IMG/VR virus record: IMGVR_UViG_3300021142_000023
Coordinates: 1 to 64,000 of that record
Source of the DNA: a virus
DNA length: 64,000 bases
Reading direction: 5' to 3' (one strand)
The notes beneath the pieces are model-generated. The model ran no database searches and was not told the DNA's origin. It saw only the letters and a program-made list of their open reading frames with translations. Made by a program: the position numbers and the translations under genes. Each line of letters starts with the position of its first letter. Within the stretch, counting starts at the first letter, position 1. Below, piece by piece: positions 16,732 to 63,301 of this stretch.

Positions 16732-17091
16732 ATGAAAAAATTTGATAAAATAGCAGAGGGTATATTTCGTAAACTTTTAGAAGCAGATGTAGCACCTGCA
16801 CCTGCTACAGCTCAACCTCAAGCACCTGCTGCTGGGTTACCTCAAGACGGTGGTCCTGTTCAAGCTGCACCAGGCAACGACACTGCTGCAGATCGTTCTC
16901 CTACTGAAATTAAGAACTGGGAAACCGAATTATTAGATATAGCTAAAGATGCTATTATGAATGTTCGTAATAACCCAAACTCGGTAGATGAAAACGATGT
17001 TAAAGTATTAACCATGCCTGTCACCATGGAAAATAAAGATAAACCAGGTGGTATTATGGACGTACTTAACAAACTAGCGGGTAAAGCTTAA
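16732..17091 (+). CDS. Small putative packaged protein
   Basis: This 119-aa protein begins MKKFDKIAEGIFRKLLEADV, again a short basic/hydrophobic leader ending in L-L-E before an Ala/Pro-rich spacer (APAPATAQPQAPAAG). The C-terminal half is acidic with NWETELLDIAKDAIMNVRNN. The stop overlaps the end of the convergent endolysin gene by 4 nt. No known domain. By analogy with T4 internal proteins the leader may be removed in the prohead. Confidence 0.62.
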   Translation: MKKFDKIAEGIFRKLLEADVAPAPATAQPQAPAAGLPQDGGPVQAAPGNDTAADRSPTEIKNWETELLDIAKDAIMNVRNNPNSVDENDVKVLTMPVTMENKDKPGGIMDVLNKLAGKA

Positions 17092-41927: not shown

Positions 41928-42587
41928 ATGGTTTACAAACTCATAACTCAAACCCCTATCTGCGAGGGACTTGATTATCTAATCGAAGAAGGCAACAAAG
42001 ACAAGCCAGCCAATATTTATGTATCTGGTGTTTATATGGTAGCAGAAGAAAAGAACCGTAATAACCGCATTTACAGCCGTGAAGAAATGGCCCGTGAAGT
42101 AGAACGCTACAATGAAGAATTTGTTAGAACAAACAGAGCTTTAGGTGAACTTGAACACCCAAACAGCGCTAATGTTAGCAGCGAAAGAGCATGCCATCTA
42201 ATTACTGAACTTAGAATGGACGGTAATGTGGTAAAAGGTAAAAGCAAGATACTACGCACCCCACTAGGAGAAATCATGAGATCTCTAGTCATGGATGGTG
42301 TTAAGATGGGTATGAGCTCAAGAGCTTTAGGTACAGTAGAGGATAAAGGTGGTACCAACTACGTAACCAACATGAAACTCATTACAGTTGACGCCGTAGC
42401 TGATCCTTCTGCTCCTGGTGCATTTGTTAACGGTATTTTAGAATCTAAAAACTTTATTATCAAGCAAGACGGTCGTTACGAAGAAATATACGACGTTTTA
42501 GAATCTAAACTTAGCTCCTTGCCTAAAAAGGACGTCGACCTATATCTTAGAGAGCACATCATTCGCTTTATCAACAACCTTAAATAA
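41928..42587 (+). CDS. gp21: Prohead core protease gp21
   Basis: This 219-aa protein follows the T4 gp21 family: KNRNNRIYSREEMAREVERY, GELEHPNSANVSSERACHLI with the catalytic His, MGMSSRALGTVED with the catalytic Ser, and ITVDAVADPSAPGAFVNGI. gp21 is a herpesvirus-protease-like serine enzyme that cuts scaffold, core and capsid proteins at I/L-x-E sites during maturation. Candidate leader substrates with such sites are scattered through this window. It is followed at 1 nt by a small core gene. Confidence 0.93.
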   Translation: MVYKLITQTPICEGLDYLIEEGNKDKPANIYVSGVYMVAEEKNRNNRIYSREEMAREVERYNEEFVRTNRALGELEHPNSANVSSERACHLITELRMDGNVVKGKSKILRTPLGEIMRSLVMDGVKMGMSSRALGTVEDKGGTNYVTNMKLITVDAVADPSAPGAFVNGILESKNFIIKQDGRYEEIYDVLESKLSSLPKKDVDLYLREHIIRFINNLK

Positions 42588-43844: not shown

Positions 43845-45281
43845 ATGAAACAAATTAAACCTTCACAGTCATACATCGATCGTGATCGCGCAGGCCAACT
43901 TTTAAAGAAGTGGGCACCATTGCTTAATCACTCCGATGATAACACTCCAGAAATCGTAAACGAACACACTCGTTTGAACACAGCTATCCTTCTTGAAAAT
44001 CAAGAGAAGTGGTGCTTTGAGTCCGCTAACGCAGCAGGTAATGCAGGCGTTTTCGGTACACTTCAAGGTAACCCTGGTCAAGGCGGCTTACAATCAAGCG
44101 ACTTCTATGCATCACAAGATGCTCGTTTACCAAAGATCCTCATTCCGATGATCCGCCGTACTTTCCCAGAATTGATCACAAACGAAATCGTTGGTGTTCA
44201 ACCTATGAGCGGTCCAGTTGGTCTCGCTTTTGCACTTCGTTATAAATACGAAGCAGACCCACTCGGTGGTACACAACTAGACAATGGTTTCGGTACACCA
44301 GGCGGTAATGCTAACGGGGTACAAGGATGGACAAACGCTTCAGACGGTACTGAAGTAGGTTGGAACTACCTCAATACTCGCTTCACGGGTATTTCTTCAA
44401 CGTTCCTTTCCGGTAACGCTGATTTCAACATCCTCCCAACAGATAGCGGTATTGCTCAATTCTTAAGCAATTTTGAATTAACAAGCAATATTCCTCAGAT
44501 GGTCGTTTCCTTCGAAAAGACCGCTGTTGAAGCTGGTACACGTCGTCTAGCTGCTCGTTGGTCAGTTGAACTTGAGCAAGATCTCAAGAACATGAACGGT
44601 ATCGACATTGACAATGAATTAACGAACGCTATGTCGTACGAAATTCAAGCTGAAATCGACCGTGAAATGGTAATCCGTATGTGCCAAGTTGCTCTCAACG
44701 CTGGTGCAGGCCAAGGTTATTCATTCTGGAACGCAGCTTCAGCTGATGGTCGTTGGTTAGGTGAACGTAACCGTGACTTCTTTGCACGTGTTATTGTTGA
44801 AGCTAACCGTGTTGCTATCCGCAATCGCCGTGGCGCAGCAAACTTCATCATTGCAACACCTCGTGTTTGCGCAATGTTTGAAATGCTTCCTGAGTTCCAA
44901 TGGTTCTCAGTTAACGGTAACGTAAACACACAACCAGTTGGTATTGCTAAAGTTGGTACAGTCGGTGGTCGTTTCACGATCTACCGTGATACACGTACAG
45001 AAGCACAATATCAGACAAATCAACGTGGTACAATACTTGAGTACGCTTTATTAGGCTACAAGGGTGCTGAATACTATGATACTGGTATCGTTTACTGCCC
45101 ATACATTCCTGTATTAGTACAGCGTACAGTTGGTCCTAATGATTTCAGCCCACGTGTTGGTTTAATGACCCGTTATGGTGTTATTGATCATATCTTTGGT
45201 GCTGCTCTTTATTACCACCTCATTATCGTATCTGGTCTTGGCAACGCTTTCGTTCCAGGCACAGCTGCTACAATGCTATAA
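43845..45281 (+). CDS. gp23: Major capsid protein gp23
   Basis: This 478-aa protein aligns with T4 gp23 landmarks: AGQLLKKWAPLLN at the N-terminus, LENQEKW, RLPKILIPMIRRTFPELI, NEIVGVQPMSGPVGLAFALR, RWSVELEQDLKNMNGID, NFIIATPRVCAMFEML and VQRTVGPNDFSPRVGLMTRY. AILLEN offers an L-L-E site for gp21 cleavage of the N-terminal propeptide. It is flanked by terminators on both sides, so it is a separate highly expressed unit. Its QSSDFYASQDAR segment reappears in the 82-aa protein at 15025. Confidence 0.97.
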   Translation: MKQIKPSQSYIDRDRAGQLLKKWAPLLNHSDDNTPEIVNEHTRLNTAILLENQEKWCFESANAAGNAGVFGTLQGNPGQGGLQSSDFYASQDARLPKILIPMIRRTFPELITNEIVGVQPMSGPVGLAFALRYKYEADPLGGTQLDNGFGTPGGNANGVQGWTNASDGTEVGWNYLNTRFTGISSTFLSGNADFNILPTDSGIAQFLSNFELTSNIPQMVVSFEKTAVEAGTRRLAARWSVELEQDLKNMNGIDIDNELTNAMSYEIQAEIDREMVIRMCQVALNAGAGQGYSFWNAASADGRWLGERNRDFFARVIVEANRVAIRNRRGAANFIIATPRVCAMFEMLPEFQWFSVNGNVNTQPVGIAKVGTVGGRFTIYRDTRTEAQYQTNQRGTILEYALLGYKGAEYYDTGIVYCPYIPVLVQRTVGPNDFSPRVGLMTRYGVIDHIFGAALYYHLIIVSGLGNAFVPGTAATML

Positions 45282-58736: not shown

Positions 58737-61424
58737 ATGTCAACATACATCAATACAGAAGATAGTAACGTATTAAATACGCAAGACAGTAATCAAATAG
58801 TTACTGAAAGCTCTACTTCTTCATCTCCTTCGACTTCAGCACCAACAGTTACCAGTATTAGTCCTACAAGCGGTTCTACAGCCGGTGGTACTATAGTTAC
58901 TATTAACGGTACTGGTTTTACAAATGCTCTTGGAGTATCTTTCGGTACTACAGCAGCTACTACTTTTACAGTTAATACTGATACATCTATTACTGCTACT
59001 TCTCCAGCTGGTGCAGCAGGGGTGGTTGATGTAACTGTAACAACGTCATTAGGTACAAGCACTACAAGTACAAATGATCAGTTTACATATGTTGCACCTA
59101 CCATACCTTTCTGTTCCCAACATGAAAATTTAGTTTCAACATATATCAATTCTGGCGGGTTTTCAGTAAAAAGTTCTTATATTGGTGCTTCTCCTAGTGT
59201 AATTTTTACGTATGCAACACCTGTATATGTAGATATTAATATTGCTACTGGTGCACAAACAACTACGATATTAAACTTATTCTCTATTTTTATACAATAT
59301 GGAGATGGAGTAGAAGAAGAAATTACACAAGTTACAGATAGTGTAATGCGTGGTTCGGATCACGTATACAAATGGCCTGGTGAGTTTGAAGTTAAAGTTT
59401 CGGTTATACCTAAGAACGGTTGCCCGCCTTCAATATTCCGTTCTTCAATAACAGTACAAAATTATACAACCGATTATTTACAATGGGATTATTCTCGTTG
59501 GCCAGAACTTACCCCACAGAACCTTTCTTTAGGTGGTTTATTTCATGGTTATCAGTCTAACCCGCCTGGTTCGTTCAACTCTCCTACACCTTTAACATTT
59601 TCATTCTCTGCTTCTAATCAATTAAGCGGCAACTTAGTATTTGACTTATACTCGCAGGGATCCTTATCTCAGCCTTGGGAAACAACCACTCCAGATAATA
59701 AATTTGCTCAGTTAAGACCACGCTGGAGATATACAGACTTAAACGGTAATTTTATTACTTCCCTAACCGCGACTAATATTACCCCGGTATATGCTATGCC
59801 AGATGGTATTGGTACTGTTCCTGGAAGTGGTACTTTAGTTGGTTATTACGGTTCAGTAGACTTTTATTATATAGACGATATACCCTCATTAGTATACAAT
59901 AACGGGTTTACGGTTACCACACCAAGAGTTTGGGTAACATATAATACAAGCAATATACCTAACTTACAGGATAATAATGATGGTAGTACGCCTTCTTATT
60001 CTAATAGTAATGTTACTTTATCTGCATTATTTTATGTAAAAAACTTATCTGCAGATCATTTTAACATAACTGTTGACGGTGATACAATACTGTTACCTAC
60101 CACTATTTGGCCAGATACAGACAATCAGTTTATAGTAACTGTTAATAGTGCATCTGCAAGTACAGTATACTATAATAACAATACACTACTTAATTATCCG
60201 CTTTTAGGAGCAACTTACACTAACGTTACAGCCACCGTAACACCCGCTTCTGCAGCAACCGTATATGTACCTTCTTTTAAGTTTAACAGATATGATAATC
60301 TAGGTAGAGATATAGGCGGTTTTTATAAAAACATTTTAAGTACATTACCACTCTCTGCTTTATCAAGTCCTATATTAAATACAAACCTGTTACTAAGTGC
60401 TAAGACATTTACAACTATAGTAGAACCTGCACCATACGGTTCTCCTGGTTACTACACAGTAGCTAATGCCCTTGCAAATGCTTCTTTAACTACAACTAGC
60501 TTGACTGGAGCGTTTAATTTTAATATTACAGATTTTTATAAAAAGTATTTTGTACGTAAAGTAAATGAAAACTTTAATTACGGTAATTTACTTAAGTCTT
60601 ATTTATTACAACCATTCCTACAGGAAGATACTAACTTAATTACGTATCTATCTGCGGTAGGTGGAGATAATGTACACCCTACAGAAAACTTCGGAACAGT
60701 AGCATATGAAAAAACTGCTAACTTTGTAGGTAATAACGCTGACCCTCTCACAAGTGGTGTTAATCAGTTATACTCTTTAGCAAGTCTAGTTGATACTGAG
60801 TTTGATGATTACAATCTAAATGCACCACCTGTACTCAAGAGACAGTTTGATCTTTATAGTACACCGCATGAGCGTTTATGGGGTACAAGAGAAAAATACA
60901 ATACAAACTTTGATGCTACTACAGATCATACGAATTTAGGAGCTGCCTTAACAGCTTATCCAGCTAACGCAACAGTTAATGCAGGAGACAAAATAGTTGT
61001 AAACGATATTTTTAATGCAACATTTTACGAACTTTTAGAAGTGCCTCGTATTAATTCTTACGCTAGTATATCTGCAAATAATATGCAGGCTTACTTCCCA
61101 CCAGCTAATACGTTAACATTCCCATTAACCTCTTATCCGCTAAGTTCGTTCTTTGGTTGGGGATTAAAGACTCCAGTTAATAGCTATTATCGGTTCTTTG
61201 TTTACAATAATGTTTATACAAACACCCCAGTAAATGCTCTTATTGATTGGAATACTCGTACAGATGGGTTATCAACTACTTTAGCCGAATCTGCTTCTTC
61301 TGTAAAAGCTTGGTACGCAGATGGTGGTATATTAGAAAATATATATAGCTATTATATTACACAGGGACTAAACTTGATAGGCAGTAAATATTATCAGTTA
61401 ACTGGTACTATACCTCAATCATGA
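58737..61424 (+). CDS. TIG- and PKD-domain baseplate/tail protein
   Basis: This 895-aa protein has a Ser/Thr-rich N-terminus, an IPT/TIG domain at about residues 36-120 (VTSISPTSGSTAGGTIVTIN, FGTTAATTFTVN), then a PKD-like domain at about 180-235 (IQYGDGVEEE, DHVYKWPGEFEVKVSVI). The remaining 650 residues are a large structural region, ending GLNLIGSKYYQLTG. Its place after gp25-gp6 suggests a gp7-like wedge part with surface-exposed Ig-like decorations, but T4 gp7 identity is not established. Its stop overlaps the next ATG in an ATGA. Confidence 0.65.
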   Translation: MSTYINTEDSNVLNTQDSNQIVTESSTSSSPSTSAPTVTSISPTSGSTAGGTIVTINGTGFTNALGVSFGTTAATTFTVNTDTSITATSPAGAAGVVDVTVTTSLGTSTTSTNDQFTYVAPTIPFCSQHENLVSTYINSGGFSVKSSYIGASPSVIFTYATPVYVDINIATGAQTTTILNLFSIFIQYGDGVEEEITQVTDSVMRGSDHVYKWPGEFEVKVSVIPKNGCPPSIFRSSITVQNYTTDYLQWDYSRWPELTPQNLSLGGLFHGYQSNPPGSFNSPTPLTFSFSASNQLSGNLVFDLYSQGSLSQPWETTTPDNKFAQLRPRWRYTDLNGNFITSLTATNITPVYAMPDGIGTVPGSGTLVGYYGSVDFYYIDDIPSLVYNNGFTVTTPRVWVTYNTSNIPNLQDNNDGSTPSYSNSNVTLSALFYVKNLSADHFNITVDGDTILLPTTIWPDTDNQFIVTVNSASASTVYYNNNTLLNYPLLGATYTNVTATVTPASAATVYVPSFKFNRYDNLGRDIGGFYKNILSTLPLSALSSPILNTNLLLSAKTFTTIVEPAPYGSPGYYTVANALANASLTTTSLTGAFNFNITDFYKKYFVRKVNENFNYGNLLKSYLLQPFLQEDTNLITYLSAVGGDNVHPTENFGTVAYEKTANFVGNNADPLTSGVNQLYSLASLVDTEFDDYNLNAPPVLKRQFDLYSTPHERLWGTREKYNTNFDATTDHTNLGAALTAYPANATVNAGDKIVVNDIFNATFYELLEVPRINSYASISANNMQAYFPPANTLTFPLTSYPLSSFFGWGLKTPVNSYYRFFVYNNVYTNTPVNALIDWNTRTDGLSTTLAESASSVKAWYADGGILENIYSYYITQGLNLIGSKYYQLTGTIPQS

Positions 61425-63301
61425 TAAGCTTTAAAAATTATTTTAACGAAAGAATACTAGAGGAATCTACAGTAGATAGCACTCTTAAGAATCACTTATC
61501 ACATTTAGAAGACCTTGCTATTGAAGAAGGTAAAAGAGGTTTTGCTAAGTTTGTTGAACAGGTAGAAAACTTTACAACCTATTTAGAAGGCTTTAATAGT
61601 AAGACGTCCGTTAACTTAAAGGTAGATGGATCACCTGCTATATTCTGGGGCATTGATCCAAGAGAGCAGTTTGATAATCAATTCTTTATTGCTACCAAGA
61701 CAGTGTTTAGTAAAGTACCTAACTTGGTGCACAGCGAACAAGAAGTAGACCAGTTATATGCTCAAGCACCTCAAGGCTTAAAAGACGTACTTAAAACAAT
61801 ATTTCCTTATTTAAAGAAGGGCTATGACAACTCTGGTTTAATGTATCAAGGTGATTTATTATTTTCGCCTTCGAGACCACCAGAAGCAAAAACTATAGAA
61901 GGTAAACAATACATTACTTTCCGTCCTAACTTAATCTCTTACGCAATACCAGCTGATCCTCAATCACCTCTTTACCAACAAGTTTCAAAGGCACCCGTGG
62001 GTATTGTAGTACATGCTGCGTTTAATATTAATGCAAATGGAGATGCTATTACCTCGAGTATGGCTGGTAGAGATACCACTCGTGTTGTTAGTAGCTTAAA
62101 GAAAGCAGGGGTATTTGCAGAAGGTTCTAACTATAAGACTTTAAACTTAAACATTGATCCTACTTTAAAGAATACTATACACGGTTTATTACAAGATGCT
62201 AAAGTAAAGATCAGTAGTATTAATAATCAGTTTGATGCTGAATATACAGGCGGTGCTTTATCTACAAGCTTAAGAGAATATACTAACTTTATGGTAAGAA
62301 AGGGCGGCGGTATATTTAAAGCTGCTCTAAACGGTGAAGCATTCGATATTAACAAATACCTAAACGGTTTCGCTATATTTTATAAAGACAAAGTATTAAA
62401 GAAAGCAGCAGATGGTTCAGATAAAGTAAAGGCTAACGCTCAAAAGAAAGTAGATAACTTAATAGCTCATTTACAGCAAAACAAAAGCTCTCTTAACGGT
62501 TTAATAGGCGCCACATACGATATGATTCGTATTAAGTTATTATTCCAAAATCTATTAGCTAATGTAGAAGGTAAACTGAGTGGTATGTATTCATTTATAC
62601 CTGTAGGAGATAGTTATATATCTGCTCCAGGAGAAGGTCACGTACTATACATCGGAGACACCCCTAACCAAGTTAAGATAGTAGACCGGTTAAACTTTAG
62701 TGCTAATAACTTTTTATATGCAGGCGAACGTGGTAGAAAACCAGCAGATCAGCCTGTAACAGAAGATGCACCAGCTGTAGAACGTAGATATAGTATTGGG
62801 TTCTTTGGTGGTGGGTTTAACCCTCCACATATCGGACATTTCGAAGCAGCTAAAATGGCGGCTAAAGAAAACGATGATGTTTATATTATTGTTTCTAAAA
62901 CAGAAAGAGACAATGCTAACATTACCATTGATAAAAAACTAGCTGTATGGAATCTTTTTAAACCATTATTAGAACAATACAGAGCTAAAATAAACATTAT
63001 AGAAGCAGAAATATCTCCAGTAGCTACTGTATACCAATATGTAGCTACATTAAATGAATCTCCAGATGCTGGTCAAATCGAAGTTAAATTATACACAGAC
63101 GCCGACGATGCCGGTCGTTATGATAGGATCAAGACATATGGAGAACATCTTGCAGGTATAGACATCAGACCAACACCTCGTATGGGCTCTGGTACTGAGT
63201 TCAGAACATATCTACAGAACGGAGACATGCGTAGAGCGTGGGAGCTAATGCCCCAAGGTGTAGATAAAAATATGATTTGGAATATATTAACGGCTCAATA
63301 A
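61421..63301 (+). CDS. Ligase-like nucleotidyltransferase fused to NMNAT-like domain
   Basis: This 626-aa protein begins MISFKNYFNERILEESTVD, a capsid-targeting-type leader with I-L-E. Residues about 60-330 resemble an adenylating ligase-like domain: VNLKVDGSPAIFWG carries a KxDG-type motif I (Lys67), NSGLMYQGDLLFSP and KAPVGIVVHAAF sit where later ligase motifs would be. Residues about 455-620 are a cytidylyltransferase/NMNAT-like domain: SIGFFGGGFNPPHIGHFEAA, then SPVATVYQYVATLN and RMGSGTEFRTYLQNGD. Two nucleotidyltransferases in one probably packaged protein is unusual. Substrates unknown. Confidence 0.65.
   Translation: MISFKNYFNERILEESTVDSTLKNHLSHLEDLAIEEGKRGFAKFVEQVENFTTYLEGFNSKTSVNLKVDGSPAIFWGIDPREQFDNQFFIATKTVFSKVPNLVHSEQEVDQLYAQAPQGLKDVLKTIFPYLKKGYDNSGLMYQGDLLFSPSRPPEAKTIEGKQYITFRPNLISYAIPADPQSPLYQQVSKAPVGIVVHAAFNINANGDAITSSMAGRDTTRVVSSLKKAGVFAEGSNYKTLNLNIDPTLKNTIHGLLQDAKVKISSINNQFDAEYTGGALSTSLREYTNFMVRKGGGIFKAALNGEAFDINKYLNGFAIFYKDKVLKKAADGSDKVKANAQKKVDNLIAHLQQNKSSLNGLIGATYDMIRIKLLFQNLLANVEGKLSGMYSFIPVGDSYISAPGEGHVLYIGDTPNQVKIVDRLNFSANNFLYAGERGRKPADQPVTEDAPAVERRYSIGFFGGGFNPPHIGHFEAAKMAAKENDDVYIIVSKTERDNANITIDKKLAVWNLFKPLLEQYRAKINIIEAEISPVATVYQYVATLNESPDAGQIEVKLYTDADDAGRYDRIKTYGEHLAGIDIRPTPRMGSGTEFRTYLQNGDMRRAWELMPQGVDKNMIWNILTAQ

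Follow-up and report, generated by a model that had tools for sequence, protein, structure and literature searches.

In phage T4, propeptides of 10-20 residues are removed by gp21 (PMC5694885), and foreign proteins can be packed by means of the 10-residue leader (PMC10229621). From related phages, packaging of an NMNAT-like protein is already known: T4-GC190 was detected in virions of S-SM1 (PMC3037559), an NMNAT in virions of S-SCSM1 and S-CBWM1 (PMC9602691) and a cytidylyltransferase in S-CREM2 virions (PMC10665884); the authors of such virion proteomes cautioned that co-purification may occur for proteins that infected cells contain in large amounts. The T4-GC190-type gene usually lies just downstream of a gene encoding DUF6267 (PF19782; T4-GC71 of cyanophages), a domain that is widespread in Kyanoviridae-type phages and has no assigned function. 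No paper naming this family was found in the literature that we searched, which leaves out most subscription journals.

Here we describe a protein in which these two domains are fused. It is encoded in a window of 64,000 nucleotides, taken from a 76,452-base virus record that carries a T4-type portal, major head protein and prohead protease, together with T4-type DNA polymerase, clamp loader and baseplate genes. The source phage is T4-like, of the Kyanoviridae type. The ORF (61421-63301, + strand) encodes 626 amino acids, and its ATG overlaps the preceding stop codon as ATGA. The protein consists of an N-terminal leader, DUF6267 (residues 24-432) and an NMNAT/cytidylyltransferase-like domain (residues 456-626). 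The features are as follows:

61421..63301, + strand: whole ORF, DUF6267 and NMNAT-like fusion (PF19782, E 4.4e-57; PF01467, E 3.1e-5; low dN/dS in both halves)
61421..61465, + strand: leader, residues 1-15 (MISFKNYFNERILEE, followed by S), predicted capsid-targeting propeptide (pattern controls in T4 and S-CREM2; L-x-E-S kept)
61490..62716, + strand: DUF6267 domain, residues 24-432, predicted ligase-like nucleotidyltransferase (PF19782; AlphaFold2 pLDDT 84.8, pTM 0.83)
61619..61630, + strand: motif I, K67-V-D-G70, with Lys67 predicted to be adenylylated (K67, D69 and G70 invariant, n=89, and kept in divergent short forms)
61847..61855, + strand: Q143-G144-D145 at the motif III position, Asp for the usual Glu (invariant, n=89; Q and D invariant in short forms)
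62159..62560, + strand: all-helical insert, about residues 247-380 (DSSP of the model and alignment with short forms; shortened in forms of ~300 aa)
62633..62644, + strand: motif IV, E405-G-H-V408 (E405, G406 and V408 invariant, n=89)
62675..62689, + strand: motif V region, K419-I-V-D-R423, a single Lys and no KxK (K419 and R423 invariant, n=89)
62786..63298, + strand: NMNAT/cytidylyltransferase-like domain of the HIGH superfamily, residues 456-626 (PF01467; phrog_3462; fold matches to PPAT, FAD synthetase and USP; low model confidence)
62810..62842, + strand: nucleotide-binding motif GGFNPPHIGHF, residues 464-474 (from the sequence; invariant in the window family)
63188..63205, + strand: SGTEFR, second NMNAT-type motif, residues 590-595 (aligns with SGTEIR of M. 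jannaschii NMNAT 1f9a)
41928..42587, + strand: prohead core protease of the T4 gp21 type, the predicted leader cleaver (PF03420, E 8.3e-33)
43845..45281, + strand: major head protein of the T4 gp23 type (phrog_138, E 4.6e-83)

The ORF is a genuine gene with full-length homologues elsewhere. The fusion occurs in nine contigs of the viral collection, as independent, full-length homologues with 75-100% identity, and the window family comprises 10 sequences in the DUF6267 tree. In pairwise comparisons against the window, dN/dS was about 0.03-0.10 for the DUF6267 half and about 0.03-0.12 for the NMNAT half, and because it is low in each, both halves are under purifying selection. The features of the ORF lie beyond chance level, except for the bare KxDG, which alone is a common motif. 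Relatives found by tblastn were almost only phages of Synechococcus, Prochlorococcus, Pelagibacter, Methylophilales and similar hosts. The relatives' genomes that we fetched belong to Kyanoviridae, with the exception of one Flavobacterium phage that matches the NMNAT part only. We also considered a bacterial origin of the protein and rejected it: nearly all matches among genome contigs came from metagenome bins and resemble phage contigs that were binned. The upstream neighbour (58737-61424) encodes 895 aa with a TIG domain (E 1.5e-14); its product is probably a structural protein associated with the tail or baseplate.

The N-terminus compares directly with the internal proteins IPII and IPIII of T4. 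Both start with a 10-residue leader (MKTYQEFIAE in T4, MISFKNYFNE here) and both phages encode a gp21-type protease, but the T4 proteins are small internal proteins, whereas the cargo here is an enzyme fusion. As in capsid-targeted internal proteins of the T4 type, the leader is aromatic/hydrophobic with a Glu and is combined with an L/I-x-E cleavage site; cleavage is predicted after Glu15 (LEE↓S) or Glu10. All close relatives retain the L-x-E↓S site (residues 13-16), while the rest of the leader drifts. We searched with the strict pattern M..[FYLW]..[FY][ILFMV].E, and MISFKNYFNE was its sole match across the 76-kb contig. When the pattern was applied to every start of the T4 genome, only ipII and ipIII were recovered. 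In S-CREM2 it matched six gene starts. Five of the products (gp6, gp13, gp14, gp136 and gp154) belong to the published virion proteome (Table 3 of PMC10665884), whereas gp175 is missing from it. Given that 52 of the 219 proteins are virion proteins, a hand calculation gave a hypergeometric p of about 0.003. Among the five, gp154 is itself the NMNAT-like protein. The leader with a cleavage-type site that had been noted in the original prediction is supported by these searches and by the gp21-type protease. Given the T4 and S-CREM2 controls and the presence of this protease in the same contig, packaging of the window protein in the head is a well-supported prediction.

Among the relatives, a near-identical leader pattern was found in 29/83 unfused DUF6267 genes and 20/59 NMNAT-like genes, compared to 26/617 other ORFs. 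The leader is therefore enriched in both gene types, and a strict match is missing from about two thirds of the unfused DUF6267 genes at the relatives' loci. Melnitz and C48C1 are examples of isolates with a leader-bearing DUF6267. DUF6267 has no known virion detection; the DUF6267 protein of S-CREM2 is a short form and is absent from Table 3 of PMC10665884.

Several other proteins of these phages start in a similar way. In S-CREM2 (L218, 1-18000), the virion-detected SAM hydrolase gp6 begins with the leader MKDFDSFLEE, the kinase gp14 begins with MKRFDAFLTE and gp13 is likewise leader-bearing, the latter two also being virion-detected; in the Cas9-like gp12, a comparable stretch (LRFASFMAEA) lies about 17 residues from the start. 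A kinase-like protein of S-CRM01 (L013:6658-9123; protein kinase profile E 4.3e-6, below the cut-off) has the same leader, with the start MISFDQFLSE. Furthermore, a different N-terminal stretch, [FY]KLLAEKY (GRNTFKLLAEKYSLVQE, MNPYKLLAEKYTQVEA), occurs on the minus strand of the contig at 64118 and 68765 (L216:3747-4193 and L216:8082-8774), with a weaker match at 16741 (+). This stretch is possibly a second leader class of the window phage.

The C-terminal half passes the PF01467 (CTP_transf_like) cut-off from residue 461 (24.6 versus 21 bits), contains the GxFxPxHxGH motif of HIGH-type nucleotidyltransferases and matches phrog_3462 (nicotinamide-nucleotide adenylyltransferase) with an E of 2.3e-8. 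The cut-offs of the NMNAT equivalogs NadM, NadR and NadD were missed by far (best 29.1 versus 210 bits). In the full-length model this half was poor (pLDDT about 30-70), and its fold matches were to HUP-type folds only, PPAT, FAD synthetase and USP among them. An NMNAT-type assignment of the GGFNPPHIGHF domain, as originally predicted, is thus supported by fold and family, and NAD synthesis by it is suggested by fold and motif only. The domain is of the same HIGH type as the T4-GC190 cytidylyltransferase/NMNAT-like virion protein of S-SM1, S-SCSM1 and S-CREM2; that is a separate protein, whereas here it forms the C-terminal half of one chain and is closer to NMNAT profiles (phrog_3462). It also shares an NMNAT-type catalytic domain with the NAD salvage systems of phages, in which NadM or NadR is combined with NadV. 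However, no NadV (PF04095) was found in the 76-kb fragment, which is incomplete, or in nine complete relatives, and no Nudix or kinase partner was found either; the partner is the ligase-like domain instead.

The N-terminal domain is a clear member of DUF6267 (194.6 versus a 27-bit cut-off for residues 24-432; E 4.4e-57); it differs from the Pfam family and T4-GC71 by its capsid-targeting leader and the NMNAT-like fusion. In PHROGs, the fusion protein matched phrog_455, to which no function is assigned. The KVDGSPAIFWG stretch (residues 67-77) contains KxDG, motif I of the covalent nucleotidyltransferase (ligase/capping) superfamily, and motif IV (EGxV) is present as well. Across 89 sequences, K67, D69, G70, Q143, G144, D145, E405, G406, V408, K419 and R423 are invariant, and their order is that of ligase motifs I-III-IV-V. 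In the short forms of about 300 aa, which include syn9 gp183 and T4-GC71 of S-SM1, the helical region is much shorter and the motifs are kept, apart from a variable middle residue in QGD and, in one case, a T in place of the V of EGxV. The signature KxDG...EGxV...K is found in 97/98 members, in all 33 Rnl1 and in 76/81 Rnl2 sequences, compared to 20/326 other ORFs, and none of 18 decoy families has it as a conserved feature. This motif order is shared with T4 Rnl1 and Rnl2 (KIHG in Rnl2). In contrast to these, DUF6267 has a helical insert between the motifs, the invariant Asp145 at motif III, where ligases usually have Glu, and a single invariant Lys419 at motif V, where the second position of KxK is V421.

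DUF6267 was well modelled by AlphaFold2. When the model was searched against the PDB, no match had an E below 0.001. A Rad50 coiled coil was ranked first with a probability of only 0.15, and the highest probability was obtained for the RNA editing ligase TbREL1 (0.60, E 0.035; not significant), followed by a Palaeococcus RNA ligase (0.30); a T. gammatolerans DNA ligase was also among the weak matches. In BFVD, DUF6267 members came first, followed by several unnamed or uncharacterised phage proteins. Among the matches with a named function, the Yasminevirus RNA ligase 2 came first (0.84, E 0.011), and further RNA ligases followed at lower probability. RNA ligases therefore lead the functionally interpretable fold matches, below significance. 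At the sequence level, hhalign of DUF6267 (long, short and combined alignments) against T4 Rnl1 and Rnl2 profiles gave probabilities of about 0-1%, no better than decoys; the top local match of the combined alignment to Rnl1 was the motif IV-V stretch, also not significant. A PDB sequence search with the protein and two alignment profiles (A1 and A5) returned short NMNAT matches or chance matches only. A transitive link via a PA5oct fold match was tried as well and was dropped, as there was no sequence match to alignment A5 or PF09414.

Because the fold matches remained below significance and the Rnl1/Rnl2 profile comparison was negative, the ligase assignment falls short of proof. We consider it a probable prediction, with a ligase-superfamily fold being somewhat favoured, and the label 'ligase-like' moderately supported. 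In the structural check foreseen in the original prediction, modelling of both domains, the DUF6267 half gave ligase matches below significance and the NMNAT half was modelled poorly. The prediction's claim of a ligase-like KxDG domain gained from the invariant motifs in the right order and from the RNA ligases at the head of the interpretable matches, but neither the E-values nor the profile alignments backed it.

DUF6267 and NMNAT-like genes are normally separate. An NMNAT-like gene lies within 3.5 kb downstream of DUF6267 on the same strand at 75/96 scorable loci, three of the 75 being fused; scorable loci were those with at least 3.5 kb downstream or with a link found, which biases the count slightly upwards. 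In the DUF6267 tree, the window family of 10 and a second fused family of three (L074, L082 and L092) form two separate supported clades, and the fusion therefore most likely arose at least twice. The downstream linkage and the repeated fusion together argue for a functional link between the two domains. A fused 'Cytidyltransferase-like domain-containing protein' of S-PM2 (A0A0M6VVW4, 591 aa) resembles the window protein in length class and annotation and is the best fold match of the DUF6267 model; however, it is only about 26% identical, and the S-PM2 genome record has two ORFs there. The 'new type of phage entry factor' proposed at first was too strong a claim, since DUF6267 and NMNAT-like genes commonly sit side by side in T4-like cyanophages and earlier studies had detected the NMNAT-like partner in virions (PMC3037559, PMC9602691, PMC10665884). 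The literature searched (most subscription journals lie outside it) contained neither the ligase-like reading of DUF6267 nor its frequent capsid leader nor the fusion.

Other domain combinations were also observed. Downstream of DUF6267 at L026:5187-7169 and L045:5658-7904, the NMNAT-like domain carries an N-terminal Pol-beta-type nucleotidyltransferase (GSILTKRYRNDADLDINV), and at L043:5405-8542, again downstream of DUF6267, a protein of 1045 aa combines NMNAT-like, RimK-type ATP-grasp and zinc protease domains. In Flavobacterium phage immuto (L099:5119-7842), a protein of 907 aa has an NMNAT-like domain, a Pol-beta-like motif seen by eye at the N-terminus of the protein (GSVKAGSKADFGDLDIIVW) and a weak Peptidase_M91 match near the C-terminus.

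We tentatively propose that the window protein is a head-packaged two-domain nucleotidyl-transfer enzyme, for which RNA-end repair with NAD support is the most likely role, although we hold this with somewhat less than even confidence. The leader would carry the protein into the prohead core, where the gp21-type protease would cut at one of the two predicted sites, and the protein would enter the cell together with the DNA. DUF6267 would then form a Lys67-AMP adduct and pass the AMP to a 5′-phosphate end, most likely of damaged RNA, for example host tRNA cleaved as part of an antiviral defence. In the same setting, the NMNAT-like domain may make NAD+ from NMN and ATP or perform a related adenylyl transfer. 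An RNA-end role is favoured by the RNA ligases leading the fold matches, by the Pol-beta fusions at L026 and L045 and by the lack of Rnl1 and Rnl2 in the nine relatives' genomes searched, an absence that is confounded with phylogeny and therefore weak as support. The support for RNA repair by the fusion protein is indirect.

Alternatively, the protein might provide NAD support only, its NMNAT-like domain restoring NAD+ after a host NADase defence or aiding phage metabolism, and DUF6267 being a carrier, nucleotide-binding or regulatory, that does not act as a ligase. This would agree with an NMNAT-like domain that is above the family cut-off and repeatedly reported in virions, and with a ligase fold below significance. 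We nevertheless consider it unlikely, as K67-D69-G70, E405-G406 and K419 are strictly invariant across deep divergence, short forms included, and look catalytic, and as NadV is absent from the fragment and the nine relatives, unlike in phage NadM systems, which pair with it (PMC9503650). The DNA ligase among the weak fold matches raises a different option, that DUF6267 is a divergent phage DNA ligase, injected or made during replication, that replaces the gp30 ligase of T4. Eight of nine DUF6267-bearing Kyanoviridae genomes indeed lack a match to ATP-dependent DNA ligase (PF01068), of which T4 has one. However, S-CRM01 encodes a DNA ligase besides DUF6267, the frequent capsid leaders point to use at entry, DNA ligases ranked below RNA ligases among the fold matches and a host ligase is available; taken together, we regard DNA end-joining as quite improbable.

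Slightly less probable still is a modifying role, in which host proteins or RNA would receive AMP or an NAD-derived group from the ligase-like domain at an early stage of infection. T4 Alt modifies by ADP-ribosylation, and other leader-bearing or virion-detected proteins of related phages are modifying enzymes, for instance the kinases of S-CRM01 and S-CREM2, but the motif order fits polynucleotide ligases. As a long shot, the fusion could be a self-recycling ligase, in which DUF6267 takes AMP from NAD+ and releases NMN, from which the NMNAT-like half of the same chain would regenerate NAD+ with ATP. The N-terminal helix (HLxHLED...G) is conserved and might bind the leaving NMN; in NAD-dependent ligases, NMN is bound by domain Ia. 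If true, very little NAD would be enough for end sealing by an injected enzyme.

In hundreds of genomes of T4-like marine and freshwater phages, DUF6267 occurs together with the NMNAT-like virion protein. Reading it as a ligase-like and often head-tagged enzyme makes this widespread domain directly testable via adenylylation of Lys67. Moreover, the leader pattern, which was compared with a virion proteome in this work, is a cheap predictor of the proteins that such phages inject.
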